The notes beneath the pieces are model-generated. The model was not told the origin of the DNA. It saw only the letters and a program-made list of their open reading frames with translations, and made no database searches. Below, in pieces: positions 2,854 through 9,363 of a DNA stretch of 64,000 nt. This DNA is from Sphingomonas sp. ATCC 31555 (lineage in GTDB: Bacteria; Pseudomonadota; Alphaproteobacteria; Sphingomonadales; Sphingomonadaceae): the NCBI RefSeq assembly GCF_000282895.1, contig NZ_ALBQ01000005.1:1-64000 (forward strand). Reading direction: 5' to 3'. A program made the position numbers and the translations under genes. Position 1 is the first letter of the stretch; each line of letters opens with the position of its first letter.

Positions 2854-3744
2854 ATGGCTGCCGAACCGACGCTCCGTCTCGACTGGGATGATCTCAAGCT
2901 GTTCGTCGAGATCGCCCATACCGGTACGCTGACCGCGGCCGCCGAGCGTCTGCGGCTCAGCCAGCCCACGGCAGGCCGTCGGCTGCGCAGCCTGGAGGAG
3001 TCGGTCGGCGCGGCGTTGTTCCAGCGCACGCCTGGCGGCTTCCGCCTGACCGACGAGGGCGAGGCGATACTTGTCCATGCCGAGCAGATGGCGGAGGAGG
3101 CGGCCGCCCTGCAGCGCAAGCTCATCGGCGGCGCACGCGGGCTGGAAGGGGTGCTGCGGCTCTCTGCCTCGGATTGGGTCTCGTCACGCGTGCTGGCGGC
3201 GCCGCTGGCCGGCTTCGCGATCGAGCATCCCGGACTGGTGGTGGAAGTACTGGCCGACTCCCGGCTCTATGATCTCCAGCGGCGCGAGGCGGATTTGGTG
3301 CTCCGCTTCGTGCCGTTCTCCGGCAGCGACATCGTCCAGCGCCGGTTCTTGCGCATTCGCTATGCGCTGTACGCCGCGCCCGCCTATCTGGAGCGCTGCG
3401 GCGACCCTCGCGCGAGCGGAGACGGCAACGGCCACCGGCTCGTGACGATGAACAGCGCGCTCGATCAACTTCCCGACGTTGCCTGGCTGCGTGGCCGCTG
3501 GCCCGCCGCCATGCCTGCCTTCCGCAGCAACAATCGCGAGGCACAGGGGGCCGCCTGCGTCGTCGGCGCCGGGCTGGCAGTGCTGCCCCGCGTGATCGGC
3601 GACCAGTTGCCGCTCGCACGGCTGGAGGGTGAGGAGCCGCCGCCGCGCGACCTGTGGCTCGGCTACCACCAGGATCTGCGGCGGTTGCGTCGGCTTCGTA
3701 TGCTCATCGACGCACTGGCTGCCATATTGCCGGCCGAACTCTGA
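2854..3744 (+). CDS. LysR-family transcriptional regulator
   Basis: A 296-residue LysR-type regulator. The N-terminal winged helix-turn-helix (about 13-72) reads LKLFVEIAHTGTLTAAAERL, then LSQPTAGRRLRSLEESVGAALFQRT and RLTDEGE, the classical LTTR pattern. The rest is the periplasmic-binding-protein-like effector domain (about 95-290). The next gene on the same strand, 99 bp downstream, is a quinone-oxidoreductase-like dehydrogenase. LysR regulators usually control an adjacent gene, so that dehydrogenase is the likely target, although LTTR targets are more often divergent. The effector is unknown. Confidence 0.92.
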   Translation: MAAEPTLRLDWDDLKLFVEIAHTGTLTAAAERLRLSQPTAGRRLRSLEESVGAALFQRTPGGFRLTDEGEAILVHAEQMAEEAAALQRKLIGGARGLEGVLRLSASDWVSSRVLAAPLAGFAIEHPGLVVEVLADSRLYDLQRREADLVLRFVPFSGSDIVQRRFLRIRYALYAAPAYLERCGDPRASGDGNGHRLVTMNSALDQLPDVAWLRGRWPAAMPAFRSNNREAQGAACVVGAGLAVLPRVIGDQLPLARLEGEEPPPRDLWLGYHQDLRRLRRLRMLIDALAAILPAEL

Positions 3745-3843
3745 ACGGCATGCGTCACCGCATGGACGCCGTGCGGAACTGGCCGTGGCAAACCGCATTC
3801 GCATGGGTGATCTGAACCGCGAACGATCATCAGGAGGTTCGAC

Positions 3844-5292: not shown

Positions 5293-5832
5293 TCACTTGA
5301 CCCGTTCGACGTCCTCGAAGCCCAGCTCCAGCGGAGTCGCGCGGCCGAAGATCGAGATCGAGACCTTCACGCGATTCTTGTCGTAATCCAGCTCTTCCAC
5401 CACGCCCGAGAAAGTGGCGAAGTTGCCGCTGATCACCTTGACCGTGTCGCCAATGTCGTAATCGACCTTGAGCTTGGCCTTGGGCGCCGCGGTGGCCGCT
5501 TCTTCCTTGGTGTTGAGGATTCGGGCGGCTTCCGCCTCGCTGATCGGTTGGGGCTTGCCCGAGCTGCCGAGGAAGCCCGTTACCTTCGGCGTGTTCTTCA
5601 CCAGATGGTAGACGTCGTCGTTCATTTCGAGCTTGGCGAGGACATAGCCGGGGAAGAACTTGCGCTCCGATTGGATCTTCTTGCCGCGGCGAACCTCGGT
5701 GACGGTTTCGGTGGGCACTTCCACCGCTTCGACGAGGCGATCCAGGCCCAGGCGGGTGGCGTCCGACAGGATCTGATCGCGGACCTTGCCCTCGAAACCG
5801 GAATAGGCGTGGATGATGTACCAGCGCGACAT
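5293..5832 (-). CDS. nusG: Transcription termination/antitermination protein NusG
   Basis: A 179-residue NusG that binds the RNA polymerase clamp, suppresses pausing and links polymerase to Rho or ribosomal protein S10. The N-terminal NGN domain starts MSRWYIIHAYSGFEGKVRDQI and contains RKFFPGYVLAKLEMNDDVYHLVKNTPKVTGFLG. A linker rich in A and E (about 103-125) leads to the KOW domain, VDYDIGDTVKVISGNFATFSGVVEELDYDKNRVKVSISIFGRATPLEL. It lies 17 bp downstream of secE and ends at its own terminator. Confidence 0.98.
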   Translation of the reverse strand: MSRWYIIHAYSGFEGKVRDQILSDATRLGLDRLVEAVEVPTETVTEVRRGKKIQSERKFFPGYVLAKLEMNDDVYHLVKNTPKVTGFLGSSGKPQPISEAEAARILNTKEEAATAAPKAKLKVDYDIGDTVKVISGNFATFSGVVEELDYDKNRVKVSISIFGRATPLELGFEDVERVK

Positions 5833-5849
5833 GATTGTTGCTGTGTCCC

Positions 5850-6056
5850 TTACTGCGCGAGGCGGAGGAGGCTGTTGACGAGCAGGTCAAACGCCGAGTC
5901 GATGCCGAGGAAGAACAGCCCGAGCAACGACGTCATGATCATCACCATCACGCCGGTCATGATCGTTTCCCGGCGCGTGGGCCAGCTGATCTTGCGGGTC
6001 TCGGTCTGGACCTGCTTCACGAATTCGACGGGACTGGTCTTCGCCACGGGCGGCAT
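5850..6056 (-). CDS. secE: Preprotein translocase subunit SecE
   Basis: A 68-residue SecE of the short, single-helix alphaproteobacterial type; it clamps the two halves of SecY in the inner membrane. The amphipathic helix PVEFVKQVQTETRKISWPTRRET carries the conserved KISWP motif. One transmembrane helix follows (about 33-58, TGVMVMIMTSLLGLFFLGIDSAF). It is first in the secE-nusG unit, with a sigma-70-type promoter about 100 bp upstream. Confidence 0.97.
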   Translation of the reverse strand: MPPVAKTSPVEFVKQVQTETRKISWPTRRETIMTGVMVMIMTSLLGLFFLGIDSAFDLLVNSLLRLAQ

Positions 6057-6154
6057 CCTCGCTTGAAACTGTCAATCGCCGCCAGACATGGGTCCGCTGC
6101 CCGATCCATCGAGGAACCGGTGCAGACCCACCCACGCTGTTGGCTAGGGGATCG

Positions 6155-6202: not shown

Positions 6203-6907
6203 TCAGCCGCGCTTCAGCCCGCGCGTGCGATGCCAGATATAGAAGGCGATCAGCGCCACCAGCACCACGCCGATCAGCGCATCGGCGCTGTGGAAGGCGG
6301 CCTTTACGCGCGGATCGCTGTTCCACTTGTCACCCAGTACCATGCCCACCCAGGCAAGGCCGAAGCACCACGGCCAGCTGCCGATAAAGGTGTAGAGGTG
6401 GAACGGCACCAGCTTCATCCGCGCGACGCCTGCAGGGAAGGCGATGAACGAGCGGATCACGGGAAGGAGACGGCCGATCAGCACCGCGATGCTGCCATAG
6501 CGGGCGAAGAAGCGATCCGCCGCGTCGATCTCGCCCGGGCCGATCAGCACATATTTGCCCCAGCGCAGCGCCAGCGGACGGCCGCCGCGCTTGCCGACCT
6601 CATAGGCGACGATCGAGCCGAGATTGCAGCCGATCGCGCCAGCAGTGGCGGCGAGGTAAAGATCGAACCGGCCGGTAGAGACCAAATAGCCGGCGAACGG
6701 CATGATGATTTCCGACGGCAGCGGAATGCAGGCGGATTCGATCGCCATCAGCAGCGCAATGCCGAGATAGCCGCCGCTCGAAATGACGCCGATGGTGAAG
6801 GTGGCAAGGATGCCCAGGATGCGTTCGACCATGCGCGTTCGTTGCGCGAGGATCGCCGCGTTGGGAAGAGGCTTTTTTGCGGGGCCGCGGCGCGGGCGGC
6901 GGGTCAT
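6203..6907 (-). CDS. DedA-family inner-membrane protein
   Basis: About 234 residues with several hydrophobic helices. The DedA/SNARE-associated signatures are visible: GYLGIALLMAIESACIPLPSEIIMPFAGYLV with the acidic residue in the re-entrant loop, then GAIGCNLGSIVAYEVGKRGG, and FFARYGSIAVLIGRLLPVIRSFIAFPAGVARM with the conserved arginines. DedA proteins are proposed proton-coupled lipid (undecaprenyl-phosphate or phospholipid) transporters that support envelope homeostasis. I chose the ATG at 6907 (MTRRPRRG) because GGAGA precedes it. An ATG at 6832 (MVERILG) would give the more usual length of about 209 residues, and a frame up to 6937 also exists. The start is uncertain. Confidence 0.9.
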   Translation of the reverse strand: MTRRPRRGPAKKPLPNAAILAQRTRMVERILGILATFTIGVISSGGYLGIALLMAIESACIPLPSEIIMPFAGYLVSTGRFDLYLAATAGAIGCNLGSIVAYEVGKRGGRPLALRWGKYVLIGPGEIDAADRFFARYGSIAVLIGRLLPVIRSFIAFPAGVARMKLVPFHLYTFIGSWPWCFGLAWVGMVLGDKWNSDPRVKAAFHSADALIGVVLVALIAFYIWHRTRGLKRG

Positions 6908-7034
6908 GCCGTCTCCGAACAAAACGCCCCACAGCACGACGAACCTTGTGTGCGGTGCGGCAAACGGTAAGCAACCGTGGAACCAACCGGGTGCGATGGC
7001 CTTTTGAACGCGTATCCAGCCGGCTGGGGAGCAC

Positions 7035-7060
7035 CTAAGTAGAAAAACTAAGTGTAAGAA
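7035..7060. repeat. Short direct repeats left of the recombinase palindrome
   Basis: CTAAGT occurs at 7035-7040 and 7048-7053, 13 bp apart, followed by TAAG. The segment is notably A/T-rich compared with its surroundings and lies just outside the left palindrome. It could be an accessory binding site or simply AT-rich foreign DNA. Confidence 0.35.
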
Positions 7061-7075
7061 TTATCGGTATTTTTA

Positions 7076-7104
7076 CTGTTACGGTTTAGCCAAAAGTGTA
7101 TCAC
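7076..7104. repeat. Left palindromic end of the recombinase element
   Basis: A 29-bp imperfect palindrome with outer arms CTGTTAC (7076-7082) and GTATCAC (7098-7104), inner TTT/AAA arms and an AGCCA centre. It matches the 29-bp sequence at 7986-8014 at 24 of 29 positions as an inverted repeat, or 22 of 29 in direct orientation. Tyrosine-recombinase crossover sites are typically two inverted recombinase-binding arms around a short spacer, which is how this looks. Confidence 0.7.
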
Positions 7105-7183
7105 GCACACCGGCTTTAGCGGTTTCAGTAATGCCTTCAGCCGCCTCGGTTAGCTGGGAAGCGTTTTTCGTAGGATGTGCGTA

Positions 7184-8011
7184 ATGGATTTGATGGTTTT
7201 CACTACAGGCGGTCACCGCAAGTATCTCACTAGCAAAGAGCTTAGCTGCTTTGCTGAAACGGCGCGTTGCGCCCCGCTGGATGTACAAACATTCTGCCTG
7301 ACCATCGCCCATACCGGGTGCCGCATCTCCGAAGCGCTTGCTCTAACGGCCGATAATATCGACTTCGAAGCGCAGACGCTGATTATCAAGTGCCTGAAGA
7401 AGCGGGGAAAGATCGTCTATCGCGCCATCCCGCTGCCTCGGGGCCTGCTCGATCAGCTACGCAGCCTGATCGAACAGATCGGCGACAGCTCGGCGCGGCT
7501 GTGGCCCTGGTCGCGGATGACTGGGTATCGCCGCATCTGCGAAGTGATGGAGGAGGCCGGCATCGCCGGCGAACATGCCAGCCCGAAGGGCCTTCGCCAC
7601 GGCTTCGCCGTGCAGGCAATACAGGCAAACGTGCCGCTCACCCTGGTCCAGCGGTGGCTGGGCCACGCCAACTTGAAGACGACGGCGATCTATACTGCGG
7701 CCATGGGAGCGGAGGAGCGCAAGCTGGCCGAGCGCATGTGGGGTGAAGAAGAGGCCGCCGATTCAAACACTTCGCGCGCGCCTGCCACCGCGCGGCCGAT
7801 ACCGGCAGTGACAGTGCGGTGCGGATCGGTGGCGCAGGACGTTACCCTGCACGTTCGCCCGAACTATCGTTCTCAGTATTCCCGGCTCTATTGTGACGGG
7901 GGACCAGCGCGGCGGCATCGCCAAGCCGATGGAAACTGGCGCGTTGCCCAAAAAATCGCTGTTAAGCCATTTGCTCGATTGCGCGCTGTTACGCTTTTGG
8001 CTAAAGGGTAA
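7184..8011 (+). CDS. Tyrosine recombinase / integrase (catalytic domain only)
   Basis: A 275-residue site-specific recombinase of the phage-integrase fold. Catalytic residues visible: Arg47 (TGCRISEAL), a lysine in KKRGK (about 72-76), Lys135-x-x-Arg138 (SPKGLRHGFA, with Lys in place of the usual His), His161 (WLGHANLKTT) and the nucleophile Tyr170 (TAIYTAA). The N-terminal SAM-like core-binding domain is missing or reduced to about 15 residues, so DNA contact may differ from Xer enzymes. After about residue 185 there is an unrecognised tail of 90 residues, and the last codons lie inside the right-hand palindrome. AGGA at 7172-7175 supports the ATG at 7184. It stands alone between dedA and an EAL gene. 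Confidence 0.88.
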   Translation: MDLMVFTTGGHRKYLTSKELSCFAETARCAPLDVQTFCLTIAHTGCRISEALALTADNIDFEAQTLIIKCLKKRGKIVYRAIPLPRGLLDQLRSLIEQIGDSSARLWPWSRMTGYRRICEVMEEAGIAGEHASPKGLRHGFAVQAIQANVPLTLVQRWLGHANLKTTAIYTAAMGAEERKLAERMWGEEEAADSNTSRAPATARPIPAVTVRCGSVAQDVTLHVRPNYRSQYSRLYCDGGPARRHRQADGNWRVAQKIAVKPFARLRAVTLLAKG

Positions 8012-8014
8012 CAG
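7986..8014. repeat. Right palindromic end of the recombinase element
   Basis: A 29-bp near-perfect palindrome: CTGTTAC-G-CTTT (7986-7997), TGGCT centre, AAAG-G-GTAACAG (8003-8014), with 11 of 12 arm positions pairing. It contains the recombinase stop codon (8009-8011). It is the partner of the palindrome at 7076-7104. No T-run follows it, so a transcription terminator is less likely. Confidence 0.75.
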
Positions 8015-8052
8015 GGCGGCGAGTCAAGTTCGTCCGGCGTTGGATAGGGACG

Positions 8053-9363
8053 ATGTGCGTCGTGCAGACAGCGGGATATACATCAAATACGGACGGAGGT
8101 GGCGCCTTTCTGGCCGATCATCTGTTCCGCTATCCTGACGCCATTAACGGAAAATTTACCCTGAGCCTGGGAAATAGTGACGCAATATCATGCGCCTTCG
8201 GCCCTTCCAGCATGCAGCAGGTGGTCGCGGCGATGTGCGCGATCCTGCAGCGGCTGGGGGAAGGGCGGGCGAACGTCCTCGCAGAGGAGGGCGGTCGCCG
8301 CATTTCGGTGACCTTCCTGGAAGCGCCGGGCGAGGCGCGCGCGCAGCCGGCAGGCGCCGGGGAGGACTGGATCCGGCTGGTCTGCCGGTCGATTCCGCTG
8401 ATTCCGATCTGGACCGACCAGGGCGTAGTGCATGTGCGCCTCTCCTGTCGGACCGGACGCGATGACGGTGCGGGTCCTGCCGGGGGCATGGACTTCGCCC
8501 CGGGCATCGGCGCGGTGCCGCTGCCGAACGCCGCGCGCTATCGCCGGGACATGGCGCTGGCATCGCCGCTGCTGTGCCAGCTCGCCGGCGCGGACGGGGC
8601 GGCAAGCTCGGGCGGTTCGCTGCGGACGCTGTGGCGCCCGGTGGTGTCGCGCGGTTCGGGCGAGATCCTCTATTACCAGTCGCTGTCTGAGGGGGATGCC
8701 GACGGGCCGGATCCGCACCGGGCCCGCGAGGGGCTGGCGGCGATCGAGCGGATCGGGTTCGGCGACCTGCTCGACGAAATCGCCGTGAACGCCGCGATCG
8801 CCGAACTCGATGCCGAGCCGCAGTTGGTGCTTTCCGCCGCGATCTCCTCGGTAGGCGTCGTGCGCAGCTGGTGGTGGCAGCAACTGGCTGCGCGGCTGGA
8901 ACGGCGCCCCGATCTCGCCGTGCGACTGATTCTGGAAGTGAGCGAGGGCGCGGCGATGGTGAAGCAGGCCGAACTGGTCGGCTTCTGCAACGAAGTGCGG
9001 CGGCTGGGCTGCACGATCGCGATCGCCGCGTTCGGCGCCGGCTTCGCTTCGGTCCGGCAACTCGTCACCATCGCGCCGGACATCGTCAAAATCGACAGCG
9101 GCTTCATCCGCCGCTCCACCACCTCGCCGCGCGACGCCGCGATCCTGGCCCGGCTGGCGCAACTCGCCGCGGCCGTGGGCGCCACCGTGGTGGCGGACGG
9201 CATCGACACCGGCGCGCAGGCGGACCTGGCCGCGGAACTCGGCTTGGACTGGCAGCAAGGGCATTTCTGGGGCGCCGCATCGGCGTGCCGGCCGTGGCGC
9301 GGTCGCAGCGACCCGCGTGCGGGCGGTGCGACCGCGATGCGGCTGGCGCCGCTGCCCGGCTGA
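8053..9363 (+). CDS. Degenerate EAL-domain protein (probably catalytically inactive)
   Basis: A 436-residue protein whose C-terminal half (about 195-415) has the EAL phosphodiesterase fold: LWRPVVSRGSGEILYYQSL at the EAL position, LVLSAAISSVGV, RLILEVSEGAAMV, AIAAFGAGFASVRQL, PDIVKIDSGFIR, VVADGID and LGLDWQQGHFWG. Several metal/catalytic positions are changed: EAL is QSL, the DDFG pair is AAFG and the late EG is DG. KID and the final QG are kept. Hydrolysis of cyclic di-GMP is therefore unlikely; binding or a protein-interaction role is possible. The N-terminal about 190 residues match nothing I recognise. A small membrane protein gene follows after 33 bp. Confidence 0.8.
   Translation: MCVVQTAGYTSNTDGGGAFLADHLFRYPDAINGKFTLSLGNSDAISCAFGPSSMQQVVAAMCAILQRLGEGRANVLAEEGGRRISVTFLEAPGEARAQPAGAGEDWIRLVCRSIPLIPIWTDQGVVHVRLSCRTGRDDGAGPAGGMDFAPGIGAVPLPNAARYRRDMALASPLLCQLAGADGAASSGGSLRTLWRPVVSRGSGEILYYQSLSEGDADGPDPHRAREGLAAIERIGFGDLLDEIAVNAAIAELDAEPQLVLSAAISSVGVVRSWWWQQLAARLERRPDLAVRLILEVSEGAAMVKQAELVGFCNEVRRLGCTIAIAAFGAGFASVRQLVTIAPDIVKIDSGFIRRSTTSPRDAAILARLAQLAAAVGATVVADGIDTGAQADLAAELGLDWQQGHFWGAASACRPWRGRSDPRAGGATAMRLAPLPG

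Follow-up and report, generated by a model that had tools for sequence, protein, structure and literature searches.

A probable DNA-inversion switch that carries its own tyrosine recombinase in Sphingomonas sp. ATCC 31555

What does a lone tyrosine recombinase gene do when it is enclosed by two related palindromes? The question is raised by positions 7076–8014 of a 64,000-nucleotide stretch of DNA from Sphingomonas sp. ATCC 31555 (the window), for which an initial annotation had proposed a minimal mobile element. We conclude that this 0.9-kb segment is very probably a site-specific DNA-inversion switch carrying its own tyrosine recombinase. Comparison of assembled loci shows that it has flipped at exactly these sites in relatives. 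The window recombinase is predicted to perform the inversion, and gene order and reading frames suggest that a flip may change the expression of an adjacent EAL-domain gene and of the recombinase itself.

In the proposed mechanism, the recombinase would bind the two palindromic sites and pair them, and strands would be exchanged within the shared asymmetric centre, TAGCCAA. Since the two centres are opposed, the segment would flip. The window is in the state in which the stop side faces the EAL gene, with recombinase and EAL gene head to tail; a flip would leave the recombinase pointing away from the EAL gene. The features are as follows.

6203–6937, reverse strand: VTT/DedA membrane-protein gene (PF09335, 1.2e-20), on the other side, reading away from the segment
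7037–7075, forward strand: A/T-rich far flank, similar in S. pokkalii and S. trueperi
7076–7104, forward strand: left crossover site, with outer arm CTGTTACGG, centre TAGCCAA at 7087–7093 and inner arm AAGTGTATCA
7087–8003, no strand: putative inverting segment, bounded by the two centres and found flipped in relatives
7175–8011, forward strand: tyrosine recombinase ORF (PF00589, 6.2e-21; conserved catalytic domain about 7184–7756)
7757–8011, forward strand: C-terminal tail of the ORF, about 85 residues, unconserved in the family and in another frame than in S. pokkalii through indels
7986–8014, reverse strand: right crossover site, with the left-site centre in opposite orientation (TTGGCTA at 7997–8003)
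8053–9363, forward strand: EAL-domain gene of the c-di-GMP phosphodiesterase family (PF00563, 2.3e-39), reading away from the segment

Crossover sites and recombinase of the window

As the initial annotation described, the two 29-nt palindromes are inverted repeats of each other, identical at 24 of 29 positions, and a repeat search ranked the pair first among the inverted repeats of 6500–8600 (28 nt, 86%). The right palindrome is near-perfect, self-pairing at 12 of 14 positions (9 of 14 in the left site), and both have the arm–centre–arm form of tyrosine-recombinase crossover sites. Tyrosine recombinases need matching centres, inverted orientation leading to inversion and direct orientation to excision. 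The opposite orientation of the shared 7-nt centres thus predicts inversion, not excision.

With up to three mismatches, the site pattern occurs in the 64-kb window only at the two sites (0 occurrences in 100 shuffles). Across the 4.05-Mb genome, the 12-nt core TTTAGCCAAAAG is found exactly only at the same two sites; one mismatch adds three further places, fewer than the 12 obtained with the backward control. A 16-nt half-site, allowing two mismatches, is likewise confined genome-wide to the two window sites. When six genomes were searched, the half-site lay at the ends of the recombinase gene, the exceptions being one 2-mismatch place in genome G561 and no occurrence in G054. The surroundings were also as first reported: A+T makes up 77% of the 39 nt preceding the left site (34% for the window), no tRNA gene lies within the 64 kb, and the recombinase stands alone between the two sites, with no cargo.

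The ORF encodes a single recombinase with the catalytic domain only, as annotated, and has no N-terminal core-binding domain. Residues R48, K73, R139, H162 and Y171 (codons at 7322, 7397, 7595, 7664 and 7691) are invariant in an alignment of 21 sequences. Position 136, where His is usual, is Lys in the window recombinase and Lys or Arg across the alignment; given Lys136, activity of the window enzyme is predicted only. The conserved protein ends at about 7741–7756, upstream of the right palindrome. That this palindrome overlaps the stop of the gene is correct, but the tail in which it lies is unconserved and frame-shifted relative to S. pokkalii, so the overlap should not be over-read.

The nearest curated families are XerA, XerD, XerC and integron integrase, followed at lower scores by tyrosine-type DNA invertases, all far below their cut-offs. 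Membership of the curated FimB and FimE invertase families (NCBIfam PRK09871 and PRK09870) was rejected, as the scores of 44.1 and 39.8 bits fall under the respective cut-offs of 222 and 221. By sequence, the nearest solved structures are XerA (5hxy, 5e-16), XerD (1a0p, 1.3e-14) and XerH (5jjv, 6.5e-12), along with XerC-like structures. The dif-type sites of such recombinases, made of arms and a short centre, resemble the arms and centre of the window sites. Unlike XerD, XerA and XerH, the window ORF has no N-terminal core-binding domain, and its gene lies between its own pair of sites.

Site pairs and flipped loci in relatives

A search of 150 relatives located 20 places in 14 genomes in addition to the window, with E values of 2.5e-30 or lower. 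A scan of a species-genome collection found 488 relatives; the 80 best were retained. An inverted site pair with a score of at least 16 brackets the gene in 29 of 97 loci (the 101 rows minus L056, L057, L085 and L112, which have short flanks); cross-locus control pairings reached that score in 0 of 97 and direct-orientation pairs in 3 of 97. In the scored inverted pairs, the distance from the beginning of the left site to the conserved start is mostly 84–117 nt. No convincing pair was found in the majority of the 97 loci, chiefly the more distant ones, which counts against a switch.

A second scan, for palindrome pairs, identified them in 34 of the 101 rows (1 of 101 in the shuffled control), 28 better in inverted and six better in direct orientation. 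In our assessment, five of the six direct pairs are unrelated repeats, and the remaining one, L098, is a site pair whose centre is almost a palindrome; L095, among the inverted pairs, looks like another kind of repeat. The 101 rows are not independent: five loci appear twice (L031a=L054, L037=L077, L038=L072, L039=L080, L040=L084), L096 and L099 do not differ at any of 7774 bases, and L094 and L097 are near copies of each other.

Twenty-five loci, including the window, were tabulated from a set of 27; L057 was left out because a contig end truncates its right site, and L168 because it has the same sites as L052. In each of the 25 pairs, the left and right sites have a common 7-nt centre, inverted in one relative to the other. 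Centre identity is partly built into this count, as the tabulation accepts only shared centres; what is informative is that none of the 25 failed and that eight centre versions occur, among them TAGCCAA, TAACCAA and TAACTAG. Inner arms agree within the 25 pairs at 84% of positions (188/225) and outer arms at 68% (154/225). The proposed link between gene and palindromes withstood these comparisons: in many relatives the gene retains a palindrome pair whose sequence is particular to that relative, and the palindromes do not recur across the genome, though a large share of the distant relatives yielded no pair.

Other architectures were observed alongside. A second group of relatives has both inverted palindromes upstream of the recombinase, 123–172 bp apart, like a classic invertible promoter (L091 3697/3840, L103 3701/3842, L112 3658/3798, L083 1008/1140, L088 3777/3908, L120 3776/3909, L047 2926/3049, L094 and L097 3607/3779, L096 2960/3094, L099 and L109 3735/3869). 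Longer segments of the same build hold extra genes inside the sites: TIR effector-like and nucleoside-phosphorylase-like genes in L124 (3899–6710), DACNV/DAC in L090 (3910–6049), a mannitol-dehydrogenase-like gene in L041 (2986–5497) and a TauD-like gene in L121 (2314–5308); the ORFs inside L107 (3917–5780) and L126 (3930–5737) were scanned and matched no family. Such extra genes could be invertible defence or stress genes. A second tyrosine recombinase lies near the switch and outside the segment in the EAL loci L031 (4702–5328, next to 3247–3819), L064 (2540–3340), L228 and L229 (both about 5480–6060), and L125 (2151–3323) encodes a tyrosine recombinase fused to an HTH_18 domain beside another switch-like locus.

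The first comparison that bears directly on inversion is with S. pokkalii (L050). Relative to the window, BLAST alignment shows the flank order reversed, the segment opposite in sense and the breakpoints at the palindromes. At single-base resolution, each flank keeps its outer arm (TATTTTTACTGTTAC for one flank, GGGTAACAGGGCG for the other) and the gene takes the inner arms along, a pattern that is the product of exchange inside the centre. The same arrangement might be attributed to an old inversion by general or one-off recombination at ordinary inverted repeats, with the recombinase a bystander, since any inverted repeat can support homologous inversion. Imperfect 27-nt repeats are, however, poor substrates for general recombination, the exchange point in S. 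pokkalii lies inside the shared core, and centres differ among elements while matching within each one. Combined with the near-confinement of the site to the ends of the recombinase gene in the six searched genomes, this makes a bystander role hardly credible.

A dedicated switch is also supported by the recombinase tree (27 sequences; orientation of L057 taken from contig FMTU01000008 alone), on which the orientation label needs four changes. Two of these are forced by well supported branches, and the window and L050 form a well supported pair of opposite orientation. Three observations point the other way. The window's own genome is assembled in one orientation, with no inversion seen. Close strains can agree: between SYK-6 and G456 (96% alike), neither of the two loci differs in orientation, and four loci from Sphingosinicella are collinear.

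The second comparison concerns the Sphingobium group. Assembly G650 and S. faniae contig FMTU01000008 are identical over 2388 flank and 902 segment bases, yet the EAL flank is joined to opposite ends of the segment, the stop side in G650 and the start side in S. faniae. Opposite joins in identical flanks mean that the same DNA exists in both orientations. Two S. faniae contigs end with a complete segment at the centre, are identical after the centre and are each joined by the start side; one flank carries the EAL gene, the other a gene read from its sequence as LysR-type. Both flanks meet at one G650 locus, where they are 100% identical over 2388 and 2288 bases with a 914-bp gap. The S. faniae assembly thus looks like a mixture of both orientations; it could instead hold two identical copies of the segment, a lesser possibility, as G650 has one. 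The contig of G054 breaks inside the EAL-side outer arm, which is compatible with inversion and proves nothing.

These loci also bear on the originally proposed minimal mobile element, in which the recombinase would excise and integrate the segment through the palindromes. Several features could be taken in its favor. The recombinase is patchily distributed (24 of 396 order genomes and 19 of 295 genus genomes at E 1e-25) and some genomes hold several copies. Related recombinase genes in Jiella occupy three places in two genomes, and their common sequence begins abruptly at a palindrome of the same type (L082 3708–4519, L101 3939–4752, L108 from 3935), a hint of mobility in some relatives. Against mobility of the window segment, site centres are inverted in 25 of 25 tabulated pairs, an orientation that leads to inversion, and the locus is flipped rather than empty in both S. 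pokkalii and the Sphingobium-group pair. Where genomes hold several copies (G631, G170, G446, SYK-6), the EAL gene outside the sites is repeated as well in all inspected copies but one.

A clean empty site, the check suggested for mobility, was sought in 201 genus and 94 Sphingobium-group genomes and none was found; flipped loci were the only outcome. Besides the genome of origin, the EAL gene gave strong matches in the genus only in G054 and G155, and the two S. faniae flanks matched in 9 of 94 and 2 of 94 genomes. The LysR-side flank occurs in G654, G702 and G649, where the EAL side is wholly absent, so these are not clean empty sites. We therefore regard the mobile-element reading as very unlikely. 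Two related candidates were rejected: direct-orientation att-type sites, as the centres are inverted in the window and 24 related loci, and an integrative element, as the window has no tRNA gene and only the recombinase lies between the sites.

Among plasmids, a nucleotide search gave two weak records and a protein search 40 records at E 1e-20, of which 14 were inspected; no phage record matched at E 1e-12. Ten plasmid stretches from Komagataeibacter and Gluconobacter (L160–L166, L169, L170, L173) all have a WGR-domain gene just before the recombinase, and nine of the ten have a ParA-type or AAA ATPase gene annotated after it.

The EAL gene and the reading frame through the site

If the segment is an inversion switch, the flanking genes become the candidates for its output. 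The initial annotation had recorded no partner, meaning a partner recombinase, and overlooked the EAL gene just outside the segment. Fifteen of the 17 best-scoring loci (L050–L066) have an EAL gene next to the segment; of the other two, L056 represents the S. faniae locus by its far flank, and L065 is truncated at a contig end. Among the best 80 of 488 relatives, 20 have the gene, all of them before L081. So do 11 of 13 distinct loci retrieved later (it is absent in L233 and L241), which were chosen from the stronger matches of the order-genome and genus-genome searches. The total is 34 EAL-adjacent loci, including the window, plasmid loci L167 and L168, and L050 with a fragment only, and the gene reads away from the segment in all 34. 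Because alignment A2 was assembled after the EAL neighbors had been seen, its 23 EAL rows of 25 are not a fair test.

The EAL gene faces the stop side in the window, L051, L053, L064 and L228, and the start side in the other loci. The first codon at which it could start is 38 nt outside the site in the window; in the other listed loci, that codon falls inside the site or no farther than about 60 nt from it. In the stop-side state, recombinase and EAL gene share a strand and are closely spaced (41 nt apart in the window, overlapping by 4 nt in L053); in the start-side state, they are divergent.

E-x-L and DDFG are functional motifs of EAL phosphodiesterases, and both are present in 17 of 22 aligned EAL proteins (alignment A3). 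The window protein has QSL and AAFG in their place and is probably not a working phosphodiesterase, and the S. pokkalii match covers only the first 85 residues of the window protein. With the EAL and DD residues lost in one and a fragment in the other, the output gene may be decaying in this lineage.

A scan of ten proteins encoded beyond the EAL genes left four without a Pfam match; the others were a BapA-type repeat adhesin (L258), a ShlB/POTRA secretion protein (L060), CsgG (L055), a sugar transferase (L064), a regulator-domain protein (L066) and a DUF4019 protein (L080). The L258 protein (2–2884) is a large aspartate–alanine repeat protein with a BapA N-terminus, and L167 has a chaperone-usher operon with spore-coat-U proteins. 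On the other side of the segment, four of the genes scanned for seven EAL loci (L051–L055, L060, L066) matched no family and the rest differ from one another.

The sites themselves may be coding. Eleven of the 25 loci (L052, L054, L055, L058, L062, L063, L064, L231, L232, L236, L238) have an ATG 17–27 nt beyond the far-side site whose frame continues across the site into the recombinase, and the assembled state of G650 also has one; on the EAL side, an in-frame ATG within 30 nt occurs in one of 25 (L080). Because L058, L062 and L063 are closely related, the eleven are not independent. In seven of them (L052, L055, L058, L062, L063, L064, L232) the frame ends immediately in the EAL-side outer arm, and in L236 and L238 it is closed within 8 nt. 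A flip could therefore open or close the recombinase's own frame in the 11 loci, the window not among them. The joined state was observed in L064 and G650 and was built computationally for most of the far-flank-ATG loci. Four findings count against this start-codon idea: the EAL-side frame stays open in L054 and L231 and contains possible start codons; L080 has its in-frame ATG on the EAL side instead; 13 of 25 loci lack an in-frame outside ATG on both sides; and translation in both states could begin at an internal Met close to the conserved start.

The window behaves differently. Its leader frame through the left site has no usual start codon, and the stop at 7182–7184, within TAATG, overlaps the recombinase ATG at 7184. 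With its own ATG, the recombinase could be translated in both states, in which case a flip would act through transcription or coupling. A scan of 6900–8200 for sigma-70-type promoters found none, a point against the switch, and there was one terminator-like stem, at chance level.

These frames also allow a working switch whose flip mainly controls the recombinase or the other-side gene, the EAL gene being merely a frequent neighbor. The far-flank ATG in 11 of 25 loci, with immediate closure by the EAL-side arm in seven, fits such an arrangement, as does a window EAL protein without catalytic residues. EAL adjacency with fixed direction in most close loci, beside an other-side gene that varies, argues against it, and we consider it unlikely, though by no means negligible. 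Returning to a switch with the EAL gene as output, a broader possibility, which we put forward tentatively and hold to be somewhat doubtful, is a family of self-editing cassettes. Here ribosome-binding site, start and first codons would lie outside, the site would be coding and the gene body would be flipped. One state would produce recombinase and EAL protein together; in the other, the frame would be shut, in many cases by a stop codon within the EAL-side arm. With defence-like cargo in related cassettes, the design would be modular across phyla.

Relation to known switches

The proposed switch shares features with several characterized systems. In the fim switch, the recombinase genes lie outside the invertible segment, and FimB and FimE consist of the catalytic domain alone. 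Like the window, fim pairs a tyrosine recombinase with inverted repeats, and its segment lies beside a surface-structure operon; the window recombinase, in contrast, is inside the segment. FimB and FimE, the tyrosine invertases of the E. coli fim switch, are named in PMC11868660.

Hin of Salmonella is, according to one survey, encoded inside its own invertible segment (PMC5903667), as in the window. Unlike the window enzyme, Hin is a serine recombinase (PMC11868660), unrelated in protein and chemistry. A parallel in output is offered by C. difficile pdcB and pdcC, where invertible DNA lies upstream of c-di-GMP phosphodiesterase genes, the transcription start of pdcC was mapped in one switch orientation and the recombinase for pdcB was unidentified (PMC9286219). 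The neighbor in the window belongs to the same phosphodiesterase family; the window differs in that the recombinase sits in the segment. The survey that describes Hin reports no inversion signature in its four Alphaproteobacteria samples (PMC5903667). The open-access literature, searched by titles and the beginnings of abstracts, contained no Sphingomonadales switch of this kind, which leaves novelty unproven.

Together, these comparisons suggest that the segment, if it acts as proposed, would be a tyrosine-recombinase counterpart of Hin in Alphaproteobacteria. It would tie DNA inversion to a c-di-GMP protein family in environmental Sphingomonadales, where several of the loci have genes for adhesins, curli, secretion or pili nearby. 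Compact invertases of this self-contained kind, with their variety of site centres, would be useful as tools, and bistable surface behavior in Sphingomonadales would become testable.
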